The notes beneath the pieces are model-generated. The model was not told the origin of the DNA, did not search any database, and worked only from the letters and a program-made list of their open reading frames with translations. Positions 15,101-56,700 of a stretch of 64,000 nt of DNA are shown here, in pieces. A program made the translations under genes and the position numbers. Origin of the DNA: Prochilodus magdalenae (lineage: Eukaryota; Chordata; Actinopteri; Characiformes; Prochilodontidae); the NCBI GenBank assembly GCA_024036415.1, contig JAMWET010003618.1, forward strand, positions 682,001-746,000. Reading direction: 5' to 3'. Numbering within the stretch: the first letter of the stretch is position 1; every line of letters begins with the position of its first letter.

Positions 15101-18100
15101 CTATTGCTCACAGCAGATGGGCCAACAGTGGGCCAGCAGTGATATCTTTGCCAGAAGTGTCCACTATCCGCTTGTTTATGCAATGGTGAAAAGTGGCAAA
15201 AGCTAAAAAAACACAGTTAAAAAACACCTCCTTTATTCAGGCGTTGGCCGGATGTTTCATTTTCTACGGTTTCGGCCGAAAAAAATTATGAAATGCATTT
15301 CAGTTTATTTTACAGTTTTTTTCCATTTCAGGCTGGTAATTTAGCTGAAAAGCTTGCCATTCTTTCAGCTTTCTGTTGATGGCGGACTTTTACACTGGAA
15401 GAAAGGTTTTTAGTTGCTTAGAAGTTACCATGGATCCACTGTGACCTTGCAGAATATTACACGTCTTGCTCTTGAAGTGATCTTTGTTGTTTGACCACTC
15501 CTCAGTAGGGTAACAATGGCATTGAACTTCCTCCATTTGCACACAATCTGTTTAGAGACAGTTTTGCAAACCTTCTCAGCCCAGTGAGTATTAACAACTA
15601 ATTTTCTGAGGTCCTCAGAAATCTATTTTGTTCATGCCATGATACACTTCCACAAACATGTCTTACGAAGATCTGATTTTTTTTTAAAACATCAGGCTGG
15701 CCACTCACACATGATTGTCCCACTGATAGATAACACTTGGCTCTAATTTCACCCTCAAAGTTCACATACTTTTGCCATATGCAGAGATATAATATTAGAT
15801 CATTTTCCTCATCAAATAAATTAATTCATACTTTTGACTAATTTGTTGGTTCACTCAAATAGGTTTGTGTGTTGCATCAGGTGCAAAATAAGGGTCGTTG
15901 TGTGGTTCCAGATTACTATGCTAATGGTTACAACTGACTGCTCATGTTTGCCAGATTTGAGATCACTGAAGAGGATTTGGAGAAAAGGATCCTGAAATCT
16001 GGACAAGTCCTCACTAAGGTTGAGGTCTTAACTATTATAAAAAGGTGCCATCTTCACGCACTGCATATCCTCTCATCTAAGCTTTATTAGGAGCTGTCTC
16101 AGCAGGACAAACATCTGTTTTGAACTTGCATATGATCCCCTTAATGGACCCCCTTCAGCTGTTACATTGCGAAAAGCACAGTTATGTTGAAGCTCATTTA
16201 AAATGTTTACAAGTAAAAGGCAGACAAGCAAATCTATTATTGTACAACAAAGGCATAACATGCAAAAATTTCAATAATGAATCATCTCCAAGCTCTGCAG
16301 TATGCCTTCTATTGTTTTCTTCATTTAACAGTCATAAAAGAACAAAAGTACAGGTGCTGGTTATAAAATTAGAATATCATGAAAAAGTTGATTTATTTCA
16401 GTAATTCCAATCAAAATGTGAAACTCATTTGTTACACACAGATTGATATATTTCAAGTGTTTATTTCTTTTCATTTTGATGATTATAACTGACAACTAAT
16501 GAAAATCCCAAATTCAGTATCAGAAATTAGTATATTGTGAAAAGGTTCAATATTGAAGACACCTGGTGCCACACTCTAATCAGCTAATTAACTCAAAACA
16601 CCTGCAAAGGCCTTTAAATGGTCTCTCAGTCTAGTTCTGTAGGCTACACAATCATGGGGAAGACTGCTGACTTGACAGCTGTCCAAAAGACGACCACTGA
16701 CACCTTGCACAAGGCGGCAGGCAAGACACAAAAGGTCATTGCTAAAGGGGCTGGCTGTTCACAGAGCTCTGTGTCCAAGCACATTAATAGAGAGGCGAAG
16801 GGAAGGAAAAGATGTGGTAGAAAAAAGTGTACAAGCAATAGGTATAACCACACCCTGGAGAGGAGTATGGAACCAAACCTATTAAAAAATGTGGGGGAGA
16901 TTCACAAAGAGTGGACTGCAGCTGGAGCCAGTGCTTCAAGAACCACCACATATGCAATACATGGGTTTCACCTGTTGCATTCCTTGTGTCAAGCCAGTCT
17001 TGAACAAGAGACAGTGTCAGAAGCATCTCGCCTGGGCTAGAGACAAAAAGGACTGGACTGCTGCTGAGTGGTCCAAAGTTATGTTCTCTGATGAAAGTAA
17101 ATTTTGCATTTCCTTTGGAAATCAAGGGCCCAGTGTCTGGAGGAGGAGAGGAGAGGCACAGAATGCATGTTGCTTGAGATCCAGTGTAAAGTTTCCACAG
17201 TCAGTGATGGTTTGGGGTGCCATGTCATCTGCTGGTCTTGATCCACTGTGTTTTCTGAGGTCCAAGGTCAACGCAGCCGTCTACCAGGACGTTTTAAAGC
17301 ATTTCATAATTCCTGCTACTGACCAACTTTATGGAGATGCAGATTTCATTTTCCAACAGGACTTGGCACCTGCACACAGTGCCAAAGCTACCAGTATCTG
17401 GTTTAAGGACCAAGGTATCCCAATTCTTAATTGGCCAGCAAACTCGCCTGACCATAACTCCATAGAAAATTTATGGGGTATTGTGAAGAGGAAGACCCAA
17501 CGGCAGTCCCAACAACGCCAGACCTAACAATGCAGAAGAGCTGAAGGCCACTATCAGAGCAACCTGGGCTCTCATAACACCTGAGCAGTGCCAAAGACTG
17601 ATCGACTTCATGCCACGCCGCATTCCTGCAGTAATCCAGGCAAAAGGAGCCCCAACTAAGTATTGAGTGCTGTACATGCTCATACTTTTCATGTTCATAC
17701 TTTTCAGTTGGCCAACATTTCTAAAAATCCTTTTTTGTATTGGTCTTAAGTGATATTCTAATTTTCTGACATACTGAATTTGGGGTTTTCATTAGTTGTC
17801 AGTTATAATAATCAAAATAAAAAGAAATAAACACTTGAAATATATCAGTCTGTGTGTAATGAATGAATATAATATACAAGTTTCACTTTTTGAATAGAAT
17901 TATTGAAATAAATCAACTTTTCCATGATATTCTAATTTTATGACCAGCACCTGTAATAGCAACCCCCTCCACTCTCAGCATGTTCCAGAATAGTTTAGAA
18001 TTTCAAAAAGAATATTCCAGGTCTGTTTAACCTATTATCCTAATTCTTCTGAAATTCTACAGCTTTGAACTTTAACAACATTTTGACATTGGCCTTACTG

Positions 18101-21100
18101 CGAAAGTTGATCAATATATTAGCTCTACTGTCTTTAGCAAGCTGGAAAATGGTAAAAACCCAGGTGAAATCCATTATATGCATTATATATGTATTGTTAT
18201 GGTCAGTGTTCTATCTGTTACCTTTAAATCTTTTGTAATTTGTAAATTGAGCTGTTCCCATGTTATCAACTCGCAAGAAAGGATACCCTTTACAGAAAGG
18301 CAGTTTATGTAATGAACGAAAAACAAAGGAGTCCATGTATTAAAGTATTATTTAGTATTAAAGACTGGAATGTGGGTCCCCACCAGAGATACAGTGAGGA
18401 AAATAAGTATTTGAACACCCTGCGACTATGCAAGTTCTCCCACTTAGAAATCATGGAGGGTTCTGAAATTTTCATCTTAGGTGCATGTCCACTGTGAAAG
18501 ACATAATCTAAAAAAAAATCACAATGCATGATTTATTAATAATTTGTGTGTTACTGCTGCAAATAAGTATTTGAACACCTGTGAAAATCAATTTTAATAT
18601 TTGGTACAGTAGCCTTTGTTTGCAATTACAGAGGTCCCGTAGTTTTTCACCAGGTTTGCACACATTGCAGCAGGGATTTTGGCCCATTCCTCCACACAGA
18701 TCTTCTCCAGATCAGCCAGGTTTCTGGGCTGTCGCTTGAGTTTGAGCTCCCTCCAAAGATTTTCTATAGGGTTTAGGTCTGGAGACTGGCTAGGCCACTC
18801 CAGAACCTTGATATGCTTCTTACAGAGCCACTCCTTGGTTATCCTGGCTGTGTGCTTTGGGTCATTGTCATGTTGGAAGACCCAGCCACGACCAATCTTC
18901 AATGCTCTAACTAAGGGAAGGAGGTTGTTCCCCAAAATCTCGCAATACATGGCCCCGGTCATCCTCTCCTTAATACAGTCCAGTCGTCCTGTCCCATGTG
19001 CAGAAAAACACCCCCAAAGCATGATGCTTCCACCCCAATGCTTTACAGTAGGGATGGTGTTTTTGGGATGTTACTCATCATTCTTCGTCTTCCAAACACG
19101 GCGAGTGGAATTAAGACCAAAAAGTTTATTTTGGTCTCATCTGACCACAGACCTTTCTTCCATGACTCCTCTGGATCATCCAAATGGTCATGGGAAAATT
19201 TAAGACGGGCCTGGACATGTGCTGATTTAAGCAGGGGAACCTTCCGTGCCATGCATGACTTTAAACTATAATGTCTTAGTGTATTACCCACAGTAACCTT
19301 GGAAACAGTGGTGCCAGCTCTCTTCAGGTCATTAACCAGCTCCTCCCGTGTAGTTCTGGGCTGATTCCTCACCTTTCTTAGGATCATTGATACACCACGA
19401 GGTGAGATCTTGTGTGGAGCCCCAGTCCGAGGGAGATTGACAGTCATGTTTAGCTTCTTCCATTTTCTAATTATTGCTCCAACAGTTGATTTTTTTTCAC
19501 CAAGCTGCTTGGCAATTGCCCCGTAGCCCTTTCAGCCTTGTGGAGGTCAACAATTTTGTTTCTGGTGTCTTTGGACAGCTCCTTGGTCTTAGCCATGCTA
19601 GTAGTTGGAGTCTTACTGATTGTGTGGGGTGGACAGGTGTCTTTATGCAGCTAACGACCTCAAACAGGTGCTTCTAATTTAGAATAATAAGTGGAGTGGA
19701 GGTGGAGTTTTTAGAGGCGGACTAACAGGTCTTTGAGGGCCAGAATTTTTGCTGATTGGCAGGTGTTTAAATACTTATTTGCAGCAGTAACACACAAATA
19801 AATTATTTTAAAAATCATACATTTCCAATTTTTTTTTTTTTTAGATTATGTCTCTCACAGTGGAAATGCACCTAAGATGAAAATTTCAGACCCCTCTATG
19901 ATTTCCAAATGGGAGAACCTGCAAAGTCGCAGGGTGTTTAAATACTTATTTTCCTCACTGTATATCCATATCCACACACACAACCCACTACTTCAGCAAA
20001 TGAGCAAGAAATGGTTTCAGTTAAGAAATCAATCTTGACACTATATTATTTCTTACAAAATGATTCTTCCTGGCCCACATGTTTTCATCACACTCAATTA
20101 TAAAAAAGTAAAAGAATTCTTGAAGACATTGTGACTCCAAAAACAAAACAAAAAGGTTTAACGTCTAACTTAACATTGTGGCTTAGCTCAACTCCACACA
20201 TCGTTCTAACATTTGAGTGAAGGTGCAGTACTAAACTGTCACAATCCGTGTTAGCTACTCAGTACACACAGCTGGGCAAGCAAGGTGGCTAATCAGCCTG
20301 TTTGACCATTTTAGGCTTGTATTTTAATGGTTGTAAACAAGGACAAAAAAGAAGCCAATTAGTATTATTTACAAAGCAATGAACAGTCAGCTACATTTTT
20401 ATGATCATGACAGCCCTAGTCATTGTATTGAAAAAAAATACAAAACACAAAAGCATTATTAACTGCAATACAAATTCACTAGCTACTAAGGCCTGAGCAT
20501 CGTCATGAGAAGTTGGACTGTCTCTGAACCAGTCTCTTTGGCTGTGGATTTCTTGCCTTCCTTGTAATTGGCAAAGGCATCAAACACAAATCAATACCAC
20601 AGATAACAGACCTCTGCACTCACTAGTATAAGCTCTGTACTCATTTACGTATGTCTGTCTTTGATCTGTGTGATTTGTACAAGTTAAGTGATAGTAATAA
20701 TCCCATTTTATATCGTTTTGATCCTCTCTCAGATTTCACTTCCACATCTGAGCTGACCTCAAGCATTGAATCTCTCCCTTTCTGACAACTTATAAGCACC
20801 AAGCTAGAACATGCCACTTACTGAGATGTCACTTTGCACTTTCTCATAAAACAGCTGGAGCATAGGGCCACCGGTTTTCTCAGGGGCCAGATGGAAGCTG
20901 TAACTCTGGGTTGGCAGGTCCTCCCCTGTCAGAGCCAGCTGCAAGTCACGGACATATTTTTCTCTCGTCATCTCCATTTCCTGGGCATCCTTGGTCACAT
21001 CATCCTCTGAAACTAATAACAAATTCACAGACAAATTAATATGACATTAAACAAACAACATACAGCTTTTTTGGCCAGACTAACTGAATGCTGCTCACCT

Positions 21101-31132: not shown

Positions 31133-32994
31133 TTGTAACTGCATTACAAAAAATGTCCAAATTATGTTAGAACATACCAACAGATTATAACAAAATTTTA
31201 AGCACCATTTAAAGGTGTCATGACGCTAAAAATGGCCAGTTAGCAAAGATCTTTAGTTTTGTGATGTAGTGTACAGTAATGTAGAAACAGCTTCTATGCA
31301 CCCATTAGTGTGCAGACTTACTTATGTGGTTGTGACAGTGTATGCCCTTAAAAAAACACTACATGACAAAAGTACATTATATACAACATAGTCTGAAATA
31401 AAAGTTCCAGCGCTTAGTTGTTGCCACAGCACAAAACATTTTTGGATACATCAACTTCATTTTTCAGGAAAACAGTGAAGATATTTTTCCTAACTGTTTT
31501 AGGTGTGTAGGGGTAGGCATCTAAGATGTTCTCCACATGTACACGTCCTAAACCCCTTCTGTGAAGCAAGGCCTCTGTCAACTCCACTGGGCACTGATTA
31601 ACACCATATGGGGCTACTTCCCCTGATGTGATCCAAACCTAAGGGGGCATTTTAACAGGGCCAGTATAAGGCTCTCTCAACACATGCAGAGTTACTTTGT
31701 GGAACATTGACCAGAGGGGGTAACTGAGCACACTGATGACAGGCACTAGTGTAAATTCTTAAATGTGAATCCTAAAACAGCGATTTGTGAACGTCGCAAT
31801 TACGAAGACTGTTGTTGCCACCAATTTGGACCCTTAAGATATAAAATTATATGCAATGAATTCAGAGCATATTATGAAGAGTGATTTTAAACATATAATG
31901 TGCGTTTTGCTCTTTGCCTCCTGTGAGCCAGGTGAACCAATTTGCTGAAGTACTGAAAGGGCTCATACAGTACTGCTTGCCCCTGGGCTCTAATGGAAAA
32001 CATATGTATGGACCAGAAACTGAAAGAGGGGAGCAAGAAAAGGAGCAGAAGAAAGCAAAACTGGCAGTGAGCTTGGAGCCTTCTAGGGCTTACATCATCT
32101 GTGATGCTGAGCTCTTTACTGGTTCCACTGGGGATTTTTTCCTCCTTAAAAAAATTGGAGACATTACCTTGGCTTACTAAAGTTACACACAGTTGTAGAT
32201 CTGCCTTGTTCTAATAACAGAAGATACATTGCAATTTTATTGACTTTTTTTTTTTTTAACTTTATCAAGCTTTAAACACTATTTAAGCACCCTTACCCAT
32301 GGCCAGGTTAGCACATCCATATAAGGTTTTAATATGTAATAAGCAGTATATAGATCTCATCAGACAGGAGCTAACTAGAGATGTAATGCATTTTGTGGCT
32401 TGGTTAAACCATTAAACAATGGTGTTCTTCCTTCTCTAAAAAGAAAAGAAACCATGAAGCTCAGTTGTCCTCCATAAGCTGAAACTGTTTCGTGTACTCT
32501 GGGATATGAGGCCATCTGCTGGTTCTGTACGTCTGGCAACTATAGCTCTTGGAGCGCACAACTTTTTTCCATGGGAGCCACAGCTCTGTATCACTTGTCA
32601 GATTTCCCCATGCAGTCGAGGAAGCATGTGCTCTCATTAAAGGCTATTATAAAGGGAAACAATGGGCCATTTGTTCAACAAATCCAGGAAACAGTATTGG
32701 TTGGCCATAGCACAAAGAGCGAATGATGGCTAAAATTCTATTGTATACTCTGCTGCTGTCGTTTGTAGCACAATAAAGCATTGGTGGAGTACTGAAAATC
32801 TTTAATGCAGATCTCATTTTCTTCAGTAATAAAATCATAATCATTACATCACAGTATGTCAATTGTTACAAATGTTTTCATAATACTAAATGTTTCGCTT
32901 TTAACTTTGTTGCACACTTGGAAACGATTGTTTGTCCCTCATCCTTTTACCATCATCATACTTACTGAACAAAAACAGCAATATTTATCACAAA
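31133..32994. other. Intergenic with an unrecognised 88-codon frame
   Basis: An open frame at 31914-32180 (plus) contains QVNQFAEVLKGLIQYCLPLG and a Glu/Lys-rich middle. I do not recognise it; it may be chance or an old fragment. Nothing else is seen. Confidence 0.3.
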
Positions 32995-33239
32995 CTTTGT
33001 TTCTGTATGCAGGACAATAAAGTAAAAATAGTATTTTTCACATTGCGTAGTGAAGTGTAAAATTTTACACACTGCATACAATAGATACTGTAAAGTAATA
33101 TATATTTTTCTAGAACATCAAAAATTGTGATTAATCAATAACTGCACATTTGCAGTTTCGATGATTCATGCACTTAAATCATTCTTCAAAACTTCGTCAA
33201 AACCAAATAAAATTCTGACATCTAAACGAGCAGCAATCG

Positions 33240-33483
33240 CCCACTTTACCTTCAAGAGTTTTTTGCAGTGCTCCCACATGAAATTTGGTGCCAACAGTTT
33301 GTCTTAATGCATGACAGGCATGATAAAGTAAGCTTTGTAGGCTTCACACAACTATGAAGATACTCTTAAGGAGTACTTTCTCACTCTGTTATGATAAATT
33401 AGTCACAGACATACCAGAAATTAGTCTGCTAGATACAGCAACTTCTTGGTCCCCTTTAAATTAAATGTCGCTCCACTATCCAT
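33240..33483 (-). pseudogene. Broken Cys-rich exon of copy B
   Basis: Begins ATG GAT AGT GGA at 33483, matching copy A, but reaches a stop at codon 21 and has further indels. The region up to the donor at 33250/33249 is recognisably homologous to 54754-54990. Confidence 0.6.
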
Positions 33484-33552
33484 TTCCTCAGCTGGAACAT
33501 AAACTGTTGTTGTTTTAACACACCTGTATTTATACTGCTATGTATACAGATG

Positions 33553-33620
33553 GACAGTCCCAGACAGTTCTAGAACGTTCTAAAAGTTTCAGGAAGTTTC
33601 TAGAAAATTCCAGACAGTTC
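33553..33620 (-). promoter_or_regulatory. Heat-shock-element-like array in copy B
   Basis: Fourteen 3-bp modules follow each other at exact 5-bp steps from 33553 to 33620, alternating between GAA-like and TTC-like. Nine are exact: TTC at 33568, 33578, 33588, 33598, 33608 and 33618; GAA at 33573, 33593 and 33603. The five from 33588 to 33610 are consecutive and perfect. This is the layout of a strong heat-shock element. TATAAATA follows 19 bp away on the minus strand. Confidence 0.65.
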
Positions 33621-33879
33621 CACAAACTACTTGAAGTCTACTCAGCACTGAATGTATCGTAGATGTTCTGGATAATAGAGAACTTTTTAAAACATCCTTC
33701 ATTGTCCTGACCACAGAAACAAAGATTATTTTTTGTACATTTTAGGCCTAATGGATTAAGAAAACAGGCATATCCAGGAACAAGAAAAAATAAACATTTA
33801 TAACAGTGTAATCTTTCAAATAAAAAGTGAATATTCATTGTGTTGTTGCTGTCTTATTGTTTGCTTTCTGGTGTCTAGT

Positions 33880-41460: not shown

Positions 41461-43060
41461 CAGTGGGGAAAATAAGTATTTAGTCAGTCACCAATTGTGC
41501 AAGTTGTCCCACTTAAAAAGATGAGAGAGGCCTGTAATTGACATCATAGGTAGACCTCAACTATGAGAGACAAAATGTGGAAAAAAATTGAGAAAGTCAT
41601 TTTGTCTGATTTTTAAAGAATTTATTTGCAAATAATGGTGGAAAATAAGTATTTGGTCAATAACAAACAAGCAAGATTTCTGGCTGTCACAGACCTGTAA
41701 CTTCTTTTTTAAGAGGCTCCTCTTTCCCCCACTCATTACCTGTATTAATGGCACCTGTTTGAAGTCGTTAACAGTATAAAAGACACCTGCCTACAACCTC
41801 AAACACTCACACTCCAAACTCCACTATGGTGAAGACGAAAGAGCTGTCGGAGGACACCAGAAACCGAATTGTAGACCTGCACCAGGCTGGGAAGACTGAA
41901 TCTGCAATAGGCAAGCAGCTTGATGTGAAGAAATCTACTGTGGGAGCAATAATCAGAAAATGGGAAGACCTACAAGACCACTACTAATCTCCCTCGATCT
42001 GGGGCTCCACGCAAGATCTCAGCCCGTGGGGTCAAAATGATCACAAGAACGGTAAGGAAAAATCCCAGAACCACAAGGGGGGATCTAGTGAATGACCTGC
42101 AGGAAGCTGGGACCAACGTTACAAAGGCTACCATCAGCAACACACTACGACGCTCAGATCTTGCAGTGCCAGACGTGTCCCCCTGCTTAAGCCAGTCCAT
42201 ATCCAGGCACGTCTGAAGTTTGCTAGAGAGCATTTGGATGTTCCAGAAGAGTATTGGGAGAATGTCATATGGTCAGATGAAACCAAAGTAGAACTATTTG
42301 GTAAAAAAAACACAACTCGTCGTGTTTGGAGGAAAGTGAATGCGGAGTTGCATCCAAAGAACACCATACCAACTGTGAAGCATGGGGGTGGCAACATCAT
42401 GCTTTGGGGCTGTTTCTCTGCAAAGGGACCAGGACGACTGGTCCGTGTACATGAAAGAATGAATGGGGCCATGTATTGTGAGATTTTGGGTGCAAACCTC
42501 CTTCCATCAGCAAGGGCAATGAAGATGAAACGTGGCTGGGTCTTTCAGCATGACAATGATCCCAAGCACACTGCCAGGGCAACAAAGGAGTGGCTTCGTA
42601 AGAAACATTTCAAAGTCCTGGAGTGGCCTAGCCAGTCTCCCGATCTCAACCCCATCGAAAACCTTTGGAGGGAGTTGAAAGTCCGTGTTGCCCGCCGACA
42701 GCCCCAAAACATCACTGCTCTAGAGGAGATCTGCATGGAGGAATGGGCCAACATACCAGCAACAGTGTGTGCCAACCTTGTGAAGACTTACAGAAAACGT
42801 TTGACCTCTGTCATTGCCAACAAAGGATATACAACAAAGTATTGAGATGAACTTTTGTTATTGACCAAATACTTATTTTCCACCATTATTTGCAAATAAA
42901 TTCTTTAAAAATCAGACAAAATGACTTTCTCAATTTTTTTCCACATTTTGTCTCTCATAGTTGAGGTCTACCTATGATGTCAATTACAGGCCTCTCTCAT
43001 CTTTTTAAGTGGGACAACTTGCACAATTGGTGACTGACTAAATACTTATTTTCCCCACTG
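41461..43060 (+). mobile_element. Tc1-like transposon, full length, TA-flanked
   Basis: Inverted termini of about 200 bp starting CAGTGGGGAAAATAAGTATT, very similar to each other, each next to TA. Length 1600 bp. It is inserted in the large first intron of atg10, opposite to the gene. It encodes a nearly complete transposase. Confidence 0.94.
41826..42845 (+). pseudogene. Tc1-like transposase with two indels
   Basis: Starts MVKTKELSEDTRNRIVDLHQ and ends NKGYTTKY. One extra G near 41962 shifts the frame and gives a stop shortly after (CACTACTAA); a small deletion around 42150-42160 brings the original frame back. The catalytic half (42234-42845) is open: [16 protein letters not shown] and NPIENLW are present with DD34E spacing. 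Few lesions imply a fairly young copy. Confidence 0.88.
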
Positions 43061-49059: not shown

Positions 49060-50612
49060 CAGTCATGGCCAAAAGTTTTGAGAATGACACAAATATTATA
49101 TTTTCACATGATCTGCTGCCCTCTGGTTTTTATGTGTGTTTGTCAGATGTTTTTATCACATAGACATAAATTGCTATTATGAGTAACAAAATTGACAGTT
49201 AGAATGAGTTAATGCAAGCAAGTCAATATTTGCAGTGTTGACCCTTCTTCTTCAGGACCTCTGCAATTCTCCCTGGCATGCTCTCAATCAACTTCTGGAC
49301 CAAATCCTGACTGATAGCAGTCCATTCTTGCACAATCAATGCTTGCATTTTGTCAGAATTTGTAGGTTTTTGTTTGTCCACCCGTCTCTTCATGATTGAC
49401 CACAAGTTCTCAATGGGATTATGATCTGGGGAGTTTCCAGGCCATGGACCCAAAATCTCTATGTTTTGTTCCCTGAGCCATTTAGTTATCACCTTTGCTT
49501 TATGGCAAGGTGCTCCATCATGCTGGAAAAGGCATTGTTGATCACCAAACTGCTCTTGGACGGTTGGGAGAAGTTGCTCTCGGAGGACATTCTGGTACCA
49601 TTCTTTATTCATGGCTGTGTTTTTAGGCAAGACTGTGAGAGAGCCGATTCCCTTGGCTGAGAAGCAACCCCACACATGAATGGTTTCAGGATGCTTTACA
49701 GTTGGCATGAGACAAGACTGGTGGTAGCGCTCACCTCGTCTTCTCCGAACAAGCTGTTTTCCAGATGTCCCAAACAATCGGAAAGGGGATTCATCAGAGA
49801 AAATGACTTTACCCCAGTCCTCAGCAGTCCACTCCCTGAACCTTTTGCAGAATATCAGTCTGTCCCTGATGTTTTTTCTGGAGAGAAGTGGCTTCTTTGC
49901 TGCCCTCCTTGAGACCAGGTCTTGCTCCAAGAGTCTCCGCCTCACAGTGCGTGCAGATGCACTCACACCTGCCTGCTGCCATTCCTGAGCAAGCTCTGCA
50001 CTACTGGTAGCCCGATCCCGCAGCTGAAACACTTTTAAGAGATGGTCCTGGCGCTTGCTGGTCTTTCTTGGGCACCCTGGAGCCTTTTTGGCAACAATGG
50101 AACCTCTCTCCTTGAAGTTCTTGATGATGCGATAGATTGTTGACTGAGGTGCAATCTTTCTAGCTGCGATACTCTTCCCTGTTAGGCCATTTTTGTGCAG
50201 TGCAATGATGACTGCACGTGTTTCTTTAGAGATAACCATGGTTAACAGAAGAGAAACAATGATGCCAAGCACCAGCCTCCTTTTAAAGTGTCCAGTGGTG
50301 TCATTCTTACTTAATCATGACAGATTGATCTCCAGCCCTGTCCTCATCAACACCCACACCTGTGTTAATGGAGCAATAACTGAAACGATGTTAGCTGGTC
50401 CTTTTAAGGCAGGGCTGCAATGAAGTTGAAATGTGTTTTGGGGGATAAAGTTCATTTCCTAGGCAAATATTGACTTTGCAATTAATTGCTGTTAAGCTGA
50501 TCACTCTTTATAACATTCTGGAGTATATGCAAATTGCCAATATAAAAACTGAAGCAGTAGACTTTGTAAAAATTTATATTTGTATCATTCTCAAAACTTT
50601 TGGCCATGACTG
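49060..50612 (-). mobile_element. Tc1-like transposon, full length, TA-flanked, intact transposase
   Basis: Inverted ends CAGTCATGGCCAAAAGTTTT at both sides (about 38 bp of matching terminus), each flanked by TA, the Tc1/mariner target. Length 1553 bp. It holds one uninterrupted transposase frame on the minus strand. It is inserted in the zcchc9 5' UTR intron in the gene's orientation. Confidence 0.93.
49223..50239 (-). CDS. Tc1-like transposase, uninterrupted, 338 aa
   Basis: Cut-and-paste transposase. The frame is open from 50272, but the ATG at 50239 (MVISKETRAVIIALHKNGLT) is the usual Tc1 start. N-terminal paired-like helix-turn-helix DNA-binding region (about residues 1-110), including GKSIAARKIAPQSTIYRIIK. 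Catalytic residues by motif: Asp149 in FSDES, Asp241 in FQHDGAP, Glu277 in NPIENLW. 35 residues lie between Asp241 and Glu277 instead of the 34 usual in Tc1, owing to one extra residue in LGPWPG. The C-terminus ends QHCKY. The absence of stops or frameshifts suggests recent insertion; activity is not shown. Confidence 0.92.
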   Translation of the reverse strand: MVISKETRAVIIALHKNGLTGKSIAARKIAPQSTIYRIIKNFKERGSIVAKKAPGCPRKTSKRQDHLLKVFQLRDRATSSAELAQEWQQAGVSASARTVRRRLLEQDLVSRRAAKKPLLSRKNIRDRLIFCKRFREWTAEDWGKVIFSDESPFRLFGTSGKQLVRRRRGERYHQSCLMPTVKHPETIHVWGCFSAKGIGSLTVLPKNTAMNKEWYQNVLREQLLPTVQEQFGDQQCLFQHDGAPCHKAKVITKWLREQNIEILGPWPGNSPDHNPIENLWSIMKRRVDKQKPTNSDKMQALIVQEWTAISQDLVQKLIESMPGRIAEVLKKKGQHCKY

Positions 50613-53784: not shown

Positions 53785-56700
53785 GTGAGACTTTATTCGC
53801 AGTATGAACTGGTATAAGAGAGAGAAAGAGATGATAGGTAGGTAGGTAGATAGATAGTTTATTGTTTAAGTTTAGCAGAGAAATACACAATACAGCACAG
53901 TAAAGCAAAACAAAGAGGGTTGTAGAGAATAAACCTAAATAGGTAGGTACCACCTCAGCAAAAGATTAAACTAGAAATAGTCCAGTATACTTTAGATAAA
54001 TATATCTCATTTATTACAATAATACAAGAAAGTCTATCTACAAAAGTACAAATAGAACTGTAGAAAAAACTTTGCTGATCAGTTTTTTAGACAGCAGAAG
54101 AGAGACCACTGTCAAGTCCAGACATGTTCCCCAGATTAACCTGACCTGCTGTCATTGTGTAACCGTGTTTGCTGATAACGTTGCTGGTTAATTATCAGTT
54201 GTAAAGCTGTTATTTGTTGCAGTGTGTATTTATTGAATCTTAAACTGACACAGTTCTGTTCTCTATCTGACCCACAGATAAAATGTGTGATCAAATAAGT
54301 GATGCTGTTCTGGATGCATATCTCTCTCAGGACCCTGAATCCAGAGTGGCCTGTGGTGGGTCTGTAATGATGATGTGCTGTTTTAGGATGTCTAATTGTT
54401 TTTCTTCTATAGTTTAGTCATTTGGTGTCAATTCACTGTTGTGAACTCTTAGGCCTAAAATGTACATAAAATGCTTATGGGGCTACATAAACGTTGCCTT
54501 TGTGGTCAGGACAATAATGTTTTGAAAAGTTCTCTATTTTCCTCAACATCTCACATACTTTCAGTGCTGGGAAGATTTCAGGTAGAATCTAGAACCATGC
54601 TCCAGAAGTTTATAGAACTGTCTGGAATTTTGAGAATCTTCGAAAATCTTAGAATTTTCTAGAATTGTCTGGAACTTTCCAGTAGTACATACATAGCAGT
54701 ATAAATACATGTGCAATTAAACAACCACTTCAGGTTATTTTCCAGCTGAGTAAGTGGATAGTGGACACACAGCAACATTCGATTTAGATGGCATCAAGAG
54801 GTCGCTGCATCTGTCAGATGCATTTTTCTACGTTTGTGGCCATACAAGGGTGAAACAGTACACGGTTAAAGCATCTGTTGTGTTGTGTGAGGCATGCAAA
54901 GCATACTTCAGGATCCCTGTTGGGTACCTAGATAAAACACAGGCACCTCATATTATGTGCAAGCACTGCAAGAAAACTTTTAAAGGTAAGGTGGAAGATT
55001 GCTGCTCATTTAGATGACAGAATTTTATTCTGTAAAGTTTGAAAGTTGAAATTTAAAGAGATTTGCTGCAATATATGTTTTTTTCACTGTGTTAATATAA
55101 AAAAAACATAACTTTCATTGTCCTGGTCACAGAAACAAAGTTTGTGATGAATATGTTAGAATAGAATATATAGGATATATATAGGTTTTGCACATAAGAA
55201 ATTGGAATATACAACATAGAAGGCAAGAACAAAAATCTGATTATGTAGTGTAATTAAATGGTTAAGATGTAAACAGAGTCATTCAGGGAACTATAGAATT
55301 CTATGCAAAGAATTAAAAAAATCTCTAGCAACAGTGAAATTACCCTGTAAGTACCGTTTTATGTACTTCTTACATCTCTGCATGTTTTTCATAACAGAGT
55401 GTGTGGCTAAGACAGGCATGATCCTGCTTTGTGGAGAAGTGACATCAAAGGCAGTGGTTGATCTTCAAAAAGTGGTTAGAGACACTGTGAAGAGTATCGG
55501 ATATGATAGCTCATCCAAGGGTAAGATACCGTATTTATACAAAAAAATGACTGAAATGAGGTTAATAAGTTATCCTGCTGGGTTTATAGATTTGAGGAGA
55601 AACAATTTATGAAAATATACAATTGTTATACAGAATATATGGAATGTTCTGGTTCAATTTGTCTAATTAGTGAAACGGAGCAACATTATGTAAAGGAATG
55701 AGCACATTGGAGCCAAATGTAAATATTTTGTTGCTGCTTTCCTCTTTAGGTTTTGACTACAAGACGTGCAACGTGCTCGTGGCCTTGCAGCCGCAGTGTG
55801 ATGAGATTAGTGACTGTGTTTTTGAAGGGAGGGACGAGGAAGACATTGGTGCTGGTGACCAGGTTAGATACTGACTTTTCAAACATGGATAGTCTATTAT
55901 CACGTGGTACCTGTGTTGCTCATGCATGACATGATGTGAGACAGCATTACTATGAACAGTCAGTGTCAGTGGAACATCTGTCCAAAAATGTCTCCGATAT
56001 AAAGCATCTCCATGTTCTAATTAGAGGAAACATCTCTACAGGGTTTAATGTTTGGCTACGCAACCGATGAGACAGAGGAGTGCATGCCACTGACTATCCT
56101 CCTGGCCCATAAGCTCAATTACAGGATGAAAGAGCTATCAAGGAATGGAGAGTGTCCATGGATACTGCCTGACTGTAAATCCCAGGTAAAATGTAAAAAG
56201 GTGTCTGCTCACATGACAGTCTCCCTGAAAGCAGTTCAGTTAAAAATGTTTCTTCTTGACAGGTTACGGTGGAATATCTTAATAACATGGGAGCTACAGA
56301 GCCGCTCCGTGTCCACACCGTAGTCATCTCAGTTCAGCATAAACCTGACATCACACTGTCAGAAATCCGACAGGCTCTGATGGAAAAAGTGGTCAAAGCA
56401 GTAATTCCAGCTAAGTACCTGGATGACAGGACAATCTATCACCTGCTGCCTAGTGGGAAGTTCCTTATGGGTGGTCCACAGGTAAATACATTACCTGTGT
56501 TTGTTGCTGTAACATCAGAATCAGATCATTTGCACTGTGTCAGTCATTTGGCATTTTTGTGGATGTCATTATTCATGTTTCTACCCCTGAAAACCAATCA
56601 CGAGTAATATATATTGTTTATTAATAGGGGGACGCAGGACTTACAGGCAGAAAGATCATTGTTGACACGTATGGTGGCTGGGGAGGTCACGGAGGTGGAG

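Follow-up and report, generated by a model that had tools for sequence, protein, structure and literature searches.

A stretch of 64,000 nucleotides from the fish Prochilodus magdalenae (contig JAMWET010003618.1, positions 682,001 to 746,000; hereafter the window) carries, within an intron of a gene resembling S-adenosylmethionine (SAM) synthetase (MAT), a copy of a dispersed DNA transposon at 54448..55250 on the forward strand. With a probability of roughly 0.7, judging from its sequence, this element is a non-autonomous deletion derivative of a Chapaev3-type transposon, similar to miniature inverted-repeat transposable elements, which would still carry the heat-shock-protein-type (hsp-type) promoter of the transposase gene. 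Between its 5′ and 3′ ends, the derivative retains a promoter-like region followed by exon 1 and its splice donor, and it exists in hundreds of copies in the genome. Its extent was established by BLAST against 38 fetched copies, a second copy in the window, and a consensus of about 0.95 kb obtained from a MAFFT alignment of 40 copies. An earlier note on this DNA had proposed a fish element family that spreads heat-responsive promoters together with an exon of its own.

The genome searched comprises 1.18 Gb in 7790 contigs. The 22-mer CATAGCAGTATAAATACAGGTG, located around the TATA box, is found there 388 times (187 + 201) with at most two mismatches, and its reversed control 0 + 0 times; further copies, whose absence would have spoken against the earlier note, are therefore abundant. 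In a search with the exon, 150 of 1078 first-look candidates were scored, and all of these matched (worst E 2.3e-18). Besides the 38 copies, 30 loci from the exon search (7 duplicates) and 8 longer stretches (4 duplicates) were fetched. The sample consists of 67 non-duplicate loci, 62 of which have matches spanning the TATA box, and retention of the promoter is biased upward in it, since loci were selected for the highest similarity to the window copy or to the exon. Over consensus positions 205-660, copies diverge on average by 13.3% from the consensus and by 22.5% from each other, and the two window copies diverge from the consensus by 16.5% (54448..55250) and 16.8%. L042 and L044 share 90% identity across a stretch of about 3 kb that contains the element, and represent a segmental duplication, so that they are not independent copies. 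At locus L043 (G000:C7707:10008-10730), a second part with heat-shock elements (HSEs) and a TATA box adjoins the copy, seemingly giving one locus with two arrays. No family copies were detected in a collection of viral contigs or, by protein search, in a collection of genome contigs, and 17 exact 17-mer matches in bacterial records are taken as chance.

The promoter-like region begins with an HSE-like array (54605..54679, forward strand), in which GAA occurs mostly in a 10-bp register, with starts at 54605, 54615, and 54625 and then at 54642, 54652, 54662, and 54672, and in which TTC-type modules lie between. It includes the perfect trimeric HSE GAATTTTCTAGAA (trimer motif GAAnnTTCnnGAA) at 54652..54664, which gives a run of three contiguous nGAAn modules alternating at 5-bp phase. 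Within the segment 54570-54699, five GAA share one 10-bp phase, four of them consecutive, and eight modules are in alternating phase; none of 2000 dinucleotide shuffles reached any of these three values, which bears out the phased GAA/TTC array described earlier. The same measures amount to 8, 8, and 10 in the consensus, each reached by 0 of 2000 shuffles, and the alternating run of three found there is equalled in 10 of 2000. Phased runs of at least three modules occur in 44 of the 62 copies and in 5 of 769 flanking pieces of 160 bp (Fisher p 9e-53), so that exact phase is strongly enriched; a lack of enrichment over shuffles would have counted against the earlier note. The consensus array, at about 205-300 bp from the 5′ end, holds two GAAnnTTCnnGAA trimers, at 246-258 and 276-288, whose TTC is exact in 39 of 51 and 43 of 56 copies, respectively. 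GAA positions are more conserved than other array positions (0.899 versus 0.851, p 6e-4), and at least one perfect trimer is kept in 32 of 45 alignable copies, compared with 21.7 expected from each copy's own identity. This excess is not read as selection because the array consensus is devoid of CpG and copies were chosen for similarity, and selection on HSEs of individual copies is not claimed, as base-matched differences in conservation are small.

Shortly after the array, as had been noticed earlier, a TATA box, TATAAATA (54700..54707, forward strand), begins 20 bp past the last TTC of the window copy, and TATAAA is exact in 33 of 57 alignable copies. It is followed by the initiator-like CCACTTC (54725..54731), whose A (54727) lies 27 nt downstream of the initial T of the TATA box; the initiator (Inr) consensus is YYANWYY, and this is found at the corresponding place in 31 of the 62 copies. 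Array, TATA box, and Inr at normal spacing fit the anatomy of a heat-shock-type promoter, and it is at this level, as a putative promoter, that the corresponding proposal of the earlier note stands. Genome-wide, 123 instances of TATAAATA (61 + 62) are preceded at 20-50 bp by a perfect HSE trimer, compared with 23 (13 + 10) for the reversed control. One hundred of these 123 pairs were scored for likeness to the family spacer, and 62 of them beat every score of shuffled interiors; thus, they belong to the Chapaev3-like family, which contributes most such pairs in the sample. The spread postulated in the earlier note is thereby partly quantified for promoters that are heat-responsive by prediction. 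A different repeat with TATTTATA...TTTCCTGAAACTTC (G000:C862, C904, C1515, C1704, C2871, and C3267) adds several HSE-TATA matches. The same genome harbors a cluster of near-identical hsp70 genes with long uninterrupted frames at G000:C6325 and G000:C2220, a natural positive control for HSE promoters; a further hsp70 locus is at C806.

The inverted ends recognized earlier are real repeats but not termini. The 5′ arm, GTGGTCAGGACAAT (54502..54515, forward strand; consensus 117-130), and the 3′ arm, ATTGTCCTGGTCACAG (55117..55132, forward strand; consensus 833-848), are both present in the consensus, at about 116 bp inward of its 5′ end and 104 bp inward of its 3′ end; copies align further outward, which rules the arms out as element ends. 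In BLAST comparisons of the region with the copies, starts recur at 54448 and stops reach about 55258, so the copies do have ends that line up, and these lie outside the proposed ones. The consensus termini are 5′ CACTACRTTACAAATG... and 3′ ...TTATGTAGTG. The window copy aligns to consensus positions 63-952, its first 62 or so nucleotides being lost or too diverged, and its 3′ terminus ...TTATGTAGTG finishes at 55250. TAA (55251..55253), followed by T, abuts this terminus in the place of a TWA target-site duplication (TSD); no 5′ partner is recognizable as that end is lost. Among the 67 loci, CAC starts 19 of 21 5′ ends and GTG closes 13 of 19 3′ ends, located with a template that itself starts with CAC and finishes with GTG. 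The 3′ flank is TWA in 11 of 19 ends (background 4.1%) and TWAT in 9 of 19 (background 1.1%), and the 5′ flank is ATWA in 8 of 21 (background about 1.1%). L012, below the 3′ cut-off of this survey, shows TAA/TAA flanks by eye.

Downstream of the Inr-like site follows what is probably a decayed transposase exon 1 (54727..54985, forward strand), comprising a presumed 5′ untranslated region and a Cys-rich frame. As stated earlier, this frame is open, namely to 54985, but the zinc-finger frame begins with GTG instead of ATG. It is closed by the consensus splice donor G|GTAAGG noted earlier (GTAAGG at 54986..54991), which is in phase 1 for the ancestral frame. The donor GT is retained in 43 of 56 copies, with GTAAG exact in 15. 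No stop interrupts the consensus frame across the Cys domain. Its first codon reads ATG in 4 and GTG in 46 of 58 copies; an alternative start codon is ATG in 6 of 62, and one or more stops break this frame in 34 of 55. Exon 1 is dead in this Chapaev3-like family. The earlier view that the element has an exon of its own is right as to its presence, but rather than having evolved for delivery, this seems to be the dead exon 1 of a lost transposase. No Pfam family passed the cut-off (best zf-AD, E 0.035) and a PDB sequence search gave no match; relatives of exon 1 include fish proteins. An exon 2 was not found by eye in eight longer regions of 6 kb, tblastn with the open reading frame of the related transposase L086 against 71 loci gave no match, and searches with the exon-2 parts of P0016 and P0054 yielded only gapped run-ons into the intron. 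A probe for the transposase core gave 21 matches, relatives at 37-56% identity and two short pieces at 69 and 77%. At L081 and L082, related exon copies, with much the same exon in two contigs, adjoin frames resembling immunoglobulin heavy-chain V segments, which suggests that V segments and insertion were duplicated together.

We file the element under Chapaev3, closest to the two-exon Merrow/Garfield group, because of its CAC...GTG ends, the A-TWA/TWA-T flank preference, and an exon 1 matching the N-terminus of a transposase family with RAG1/Transib fold. Termini CAC...GTG, as in Chapaev3 of the CMC supergroup, are present, and the 3-bp TWA target, with A before and T after it, appears as a flank preference. 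CACTA/EnSpm was also considered, as the termini read CACTA, and Chapaev3 was favored on the A-TWA-T target and the RAG1/Transib-like relative. That relative, L086, has a RAG1/Transib fold, and the DDE, C(2)C, LH, and H(4)H motifs are present in it and 66 homologs (67 of 67), while copies of the present family keep exon 1 only. L085 and L086, single-exon Chapaev3-like transposases of the same genome, share the N-terminal Cys domain, in which the five copies that match best are 42-44% identical to P0016; in L085, unlike in this family, a single open frame holds both the exon-1 domain and the core. Merrow and its sister Garfield are described as Chapaev3 elements with CAC...GTG termini and a TWA target between A and T, the two-exon transposase of Merrow having an exon 1 of 78 amino acids, and short copies of 304-833 bp are reported from catfishes, tuna, sturgeon, and paddlefish (Zhang et al., 2014; PMC4079192). 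In ends, target, 78-residue exon 1, and short copies the present family resembles this group, the comparison being by description. The two-exon structure, with an intron after a 78-residue exon 1, is matched in anatomy only, by a donor closing the Cys-rich frame, and in P0002, 78 residues stand ahead of the split codon. Unlike Merrow as described, this family keeps an exon 1 mostly devoid of a start codon, and its exon 2 was not encountered. The main text of PMC4079192 contains neither the word “promoter” nor “heat,” so no HSE/TATA module is described there for Merrow.

Several observations weigh against the reading of the element as a Chapaev3 derivative with an hsp-type promoter. The longest unbroken perfect alternating run of the window copy is three, which 14 of 2000 shuffles equal, and seven of the nine TTC slots of the consensus are not TTC, these seven being mostly GTC, CTC, TTA, TTG, or GTT. 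Since these slots mostly differ, the array is a dominant GAA decamer repeat with two full trimers and not a perfect alternating array. The decamers might thus constitute a subterminal array bound by the transposase and not by heat shock factor (HSF), their likeness to HSEs being secondary. The dominance of the 10-bp direct repeat, the many intervening slots without exact TTC, and the location at about 205-300 bp from the 5′ end would agree with this idea, and CACTA elements do have subterminal repeats. However, no matching array lies near the consensus 3′ end, where a single TTCTAG occurs at position 729, and transposase binding would hardly account for the two perfect trimers, of which at least one remains intact in most alignable copies, for five perfect modules in the second window copy, or for the placement of the array ahead of exon 1, with a TATA box 20 bp further on and an Inr-like site at the usual distance from it. 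On balance, this explanation is considered unlikely. The single-exon relative L085, the only one examined, has no array within about 700 bp upstream (longest alternating run 2, 10-bp run 1). An autonomous copy of the same family was not found, and no transposase core was detected in the fetched copies, so that use of the promoter for a transposase is only inferred. TSDs appear as flank preferences: of five copies with both ends, delimited with the CAC/GTG template, three have TWA on both sides and one (L041) has identical triplets.

Conservation at non-CpG positions of the exon is even across codon positions (0.893/0.880/0.883), so nothing points to a present function of exon 1. This evenness, together with the GTG start codon, rules out, for this family, a functional exon product such as a repressor-like protein, and because of these features, the stops, and the lack of a detectable exon 2 or core in the fetched loci, the amplified form looks non-coding. 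Exon, donor, and promoter look like surviving passengers, and their occurrence in many copies does not speak for a function today. It might even be that the array belongs to a dead transposon and is without any present-day role in regulation, regardless of past binding by HSF. This is compatible with decay of the exon free of codon constraint and with the age of the copies, given their mean divergence of 13.3%. The enrichment of HSE-TATA pairs genome-wide argues in the other direction, as does the retention of trimers above expectation, which may nonetheless reflect low CpG content or the choice of copies and not selection. We regard this possibility as somewhat unlikely, and favor a derivative that still carries a putative hsp-type promoter.

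A second copy occupies about 32980..33808 on the reverse strand of the window. Its 5′ terminus, CACTGTTATAAATG, lies at 33808 and is preceded by TTA, and its TATA box runs from 33534 downward. As claimed earlier, it shares the parts of the first copy, to which it is about 70% identical, namely array, TATA box, and exon region, with a donor-like GGTAAA in place of GGTAAG. A perfect five-module HSE at 33610-33588 is the sole alternating run of at least four modules in the window.

The first copy sits in sense orientation in its intron, the location having been correctly named in the earlier note. Part of the upstream exon (54280..54350) and the next exon (55398..55520, with a phase 1 acceptor), both on the forward strand, were recognized by translation and match S-adenosylmethionine synthases in the PDB. 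Both the element donor and the host intron are in phase 1; therefore, a fusion would be in frame. This, together with the sense orientation, the intact TATA box, the Inr-like site, and the donor G|GTAAGG, could suggest that the host has adopted the window copy as a heat-inducible alternative first exon of the SAM synthetase-like gene. However, a matching phase arises with a chance of one in three, the window copy is more diverged (16.5%) than the mean of the family (13.3%), and once past its last stop inside the element, the fused frame offers a single ATG, late in the element exon, so that the N-terminal part of the enzyme would be omitted. Adoption by the host is thus very improbable. Elsewhere in the window, an uninterrupted frame of 363 amino acids (49223-50314, reverse strand), named by eye as a Tc1-like transposase, is possibly a recent insertion; other Tc1-like frames are at 16886-17527, 18594-19070, 19043-19531, and 42096-42845.

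If the element is a Chapaev3 derivative with an hsp-type promoter, HSF trimers would have bound the phased nGAAn/nTTCn array of the ancestral transposase promoter, TATA box and Inr would have started transcription at about 54727, and transposase exon 1 would have been spliced to exon 2. Transposase would then be made in cells in which HSF is active, upon heat or other proteotoxic stress and possibly in germ cells. The short form would have been spread by the transposase of the autonomous element, dispersing HSE-TATA-Inr-exon-donor cassettes, and derivatives would give rise to short dead-end transcripts or to fusions into host exons. A sense intronic copy such as the present one could, under stress, initiate a transcript that is joined by splicing to the following host exon. 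More broadly, and tentatively, it seems possible rather than probable that a RAG1-like (Chapaev3) lineage in fish tied its jumping to the HSF response through an hsp-type transposase promoter, and that its derivatives seeded hundreds of cassettes which constitute most of the sampled TATA-proximal HSE trimers and can feed heat-dependent transcripts into host introns.

Stress-responsive mobile elements are already known from plants and nematodes. ONSEN/COPIA78 of plants is a long terminal repeat (LTR) retrotransposon with a heat-responsive promoter of demonstrated activity; it resembles the present family in that the promoter, here a putative one, is borne by the element. For vertebrate repeats of the Alu kind, we know of no hsp-like promoter of a transposase. 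Alu repeats have HSF sites and differ in being short interspersed nuclear elements, with an antisense mechanism according to the title of the report (PMC3334603). In Caenorhabditis elegans, 61.4% of HSEs are held by Helitrons, and a full-length Caenorhabditis Helitron has HSEs in the promoter of its Rep-helicase gene, such a gene being heat-induced (Garrigues et al., 2019; PMC6927752, where a heat-responsive plant element is also cited). Similarly to the present family, these Helitrons scatter HSEs through a genome. In contrast, they are rolling-circle elements of nematodes for which HSF-1 chromatin immunoprecipitation and induction were reported, whereas here a RAG1-like DDE lineage has a compact TATA/Inr promoter predicted from sequence. 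For Cryptococcus, it has been suggested that the HSEs within the LTR of TCN3 may be active, and transposition of the CMC element CNEST is increased at 37°C (PMC12810828). A review of transposable elements and stress in vertebrates does not contain the word HSF in its text (PMC7922186), and searches of an open-licence library turned up no account of a Chapaev3 element, or of a fish DNA transposon, with an HSE promoter. If the proposed reading is true, it would provide a direct link between temperature and transposition in fish, within a lineage related to RAG1, and hundreds of natural copies for studying whether promoters carried by elements give rise to new heat-responsive transcripts. An old transposon may have scattered hundreds of heat-responsive switches through this genome.
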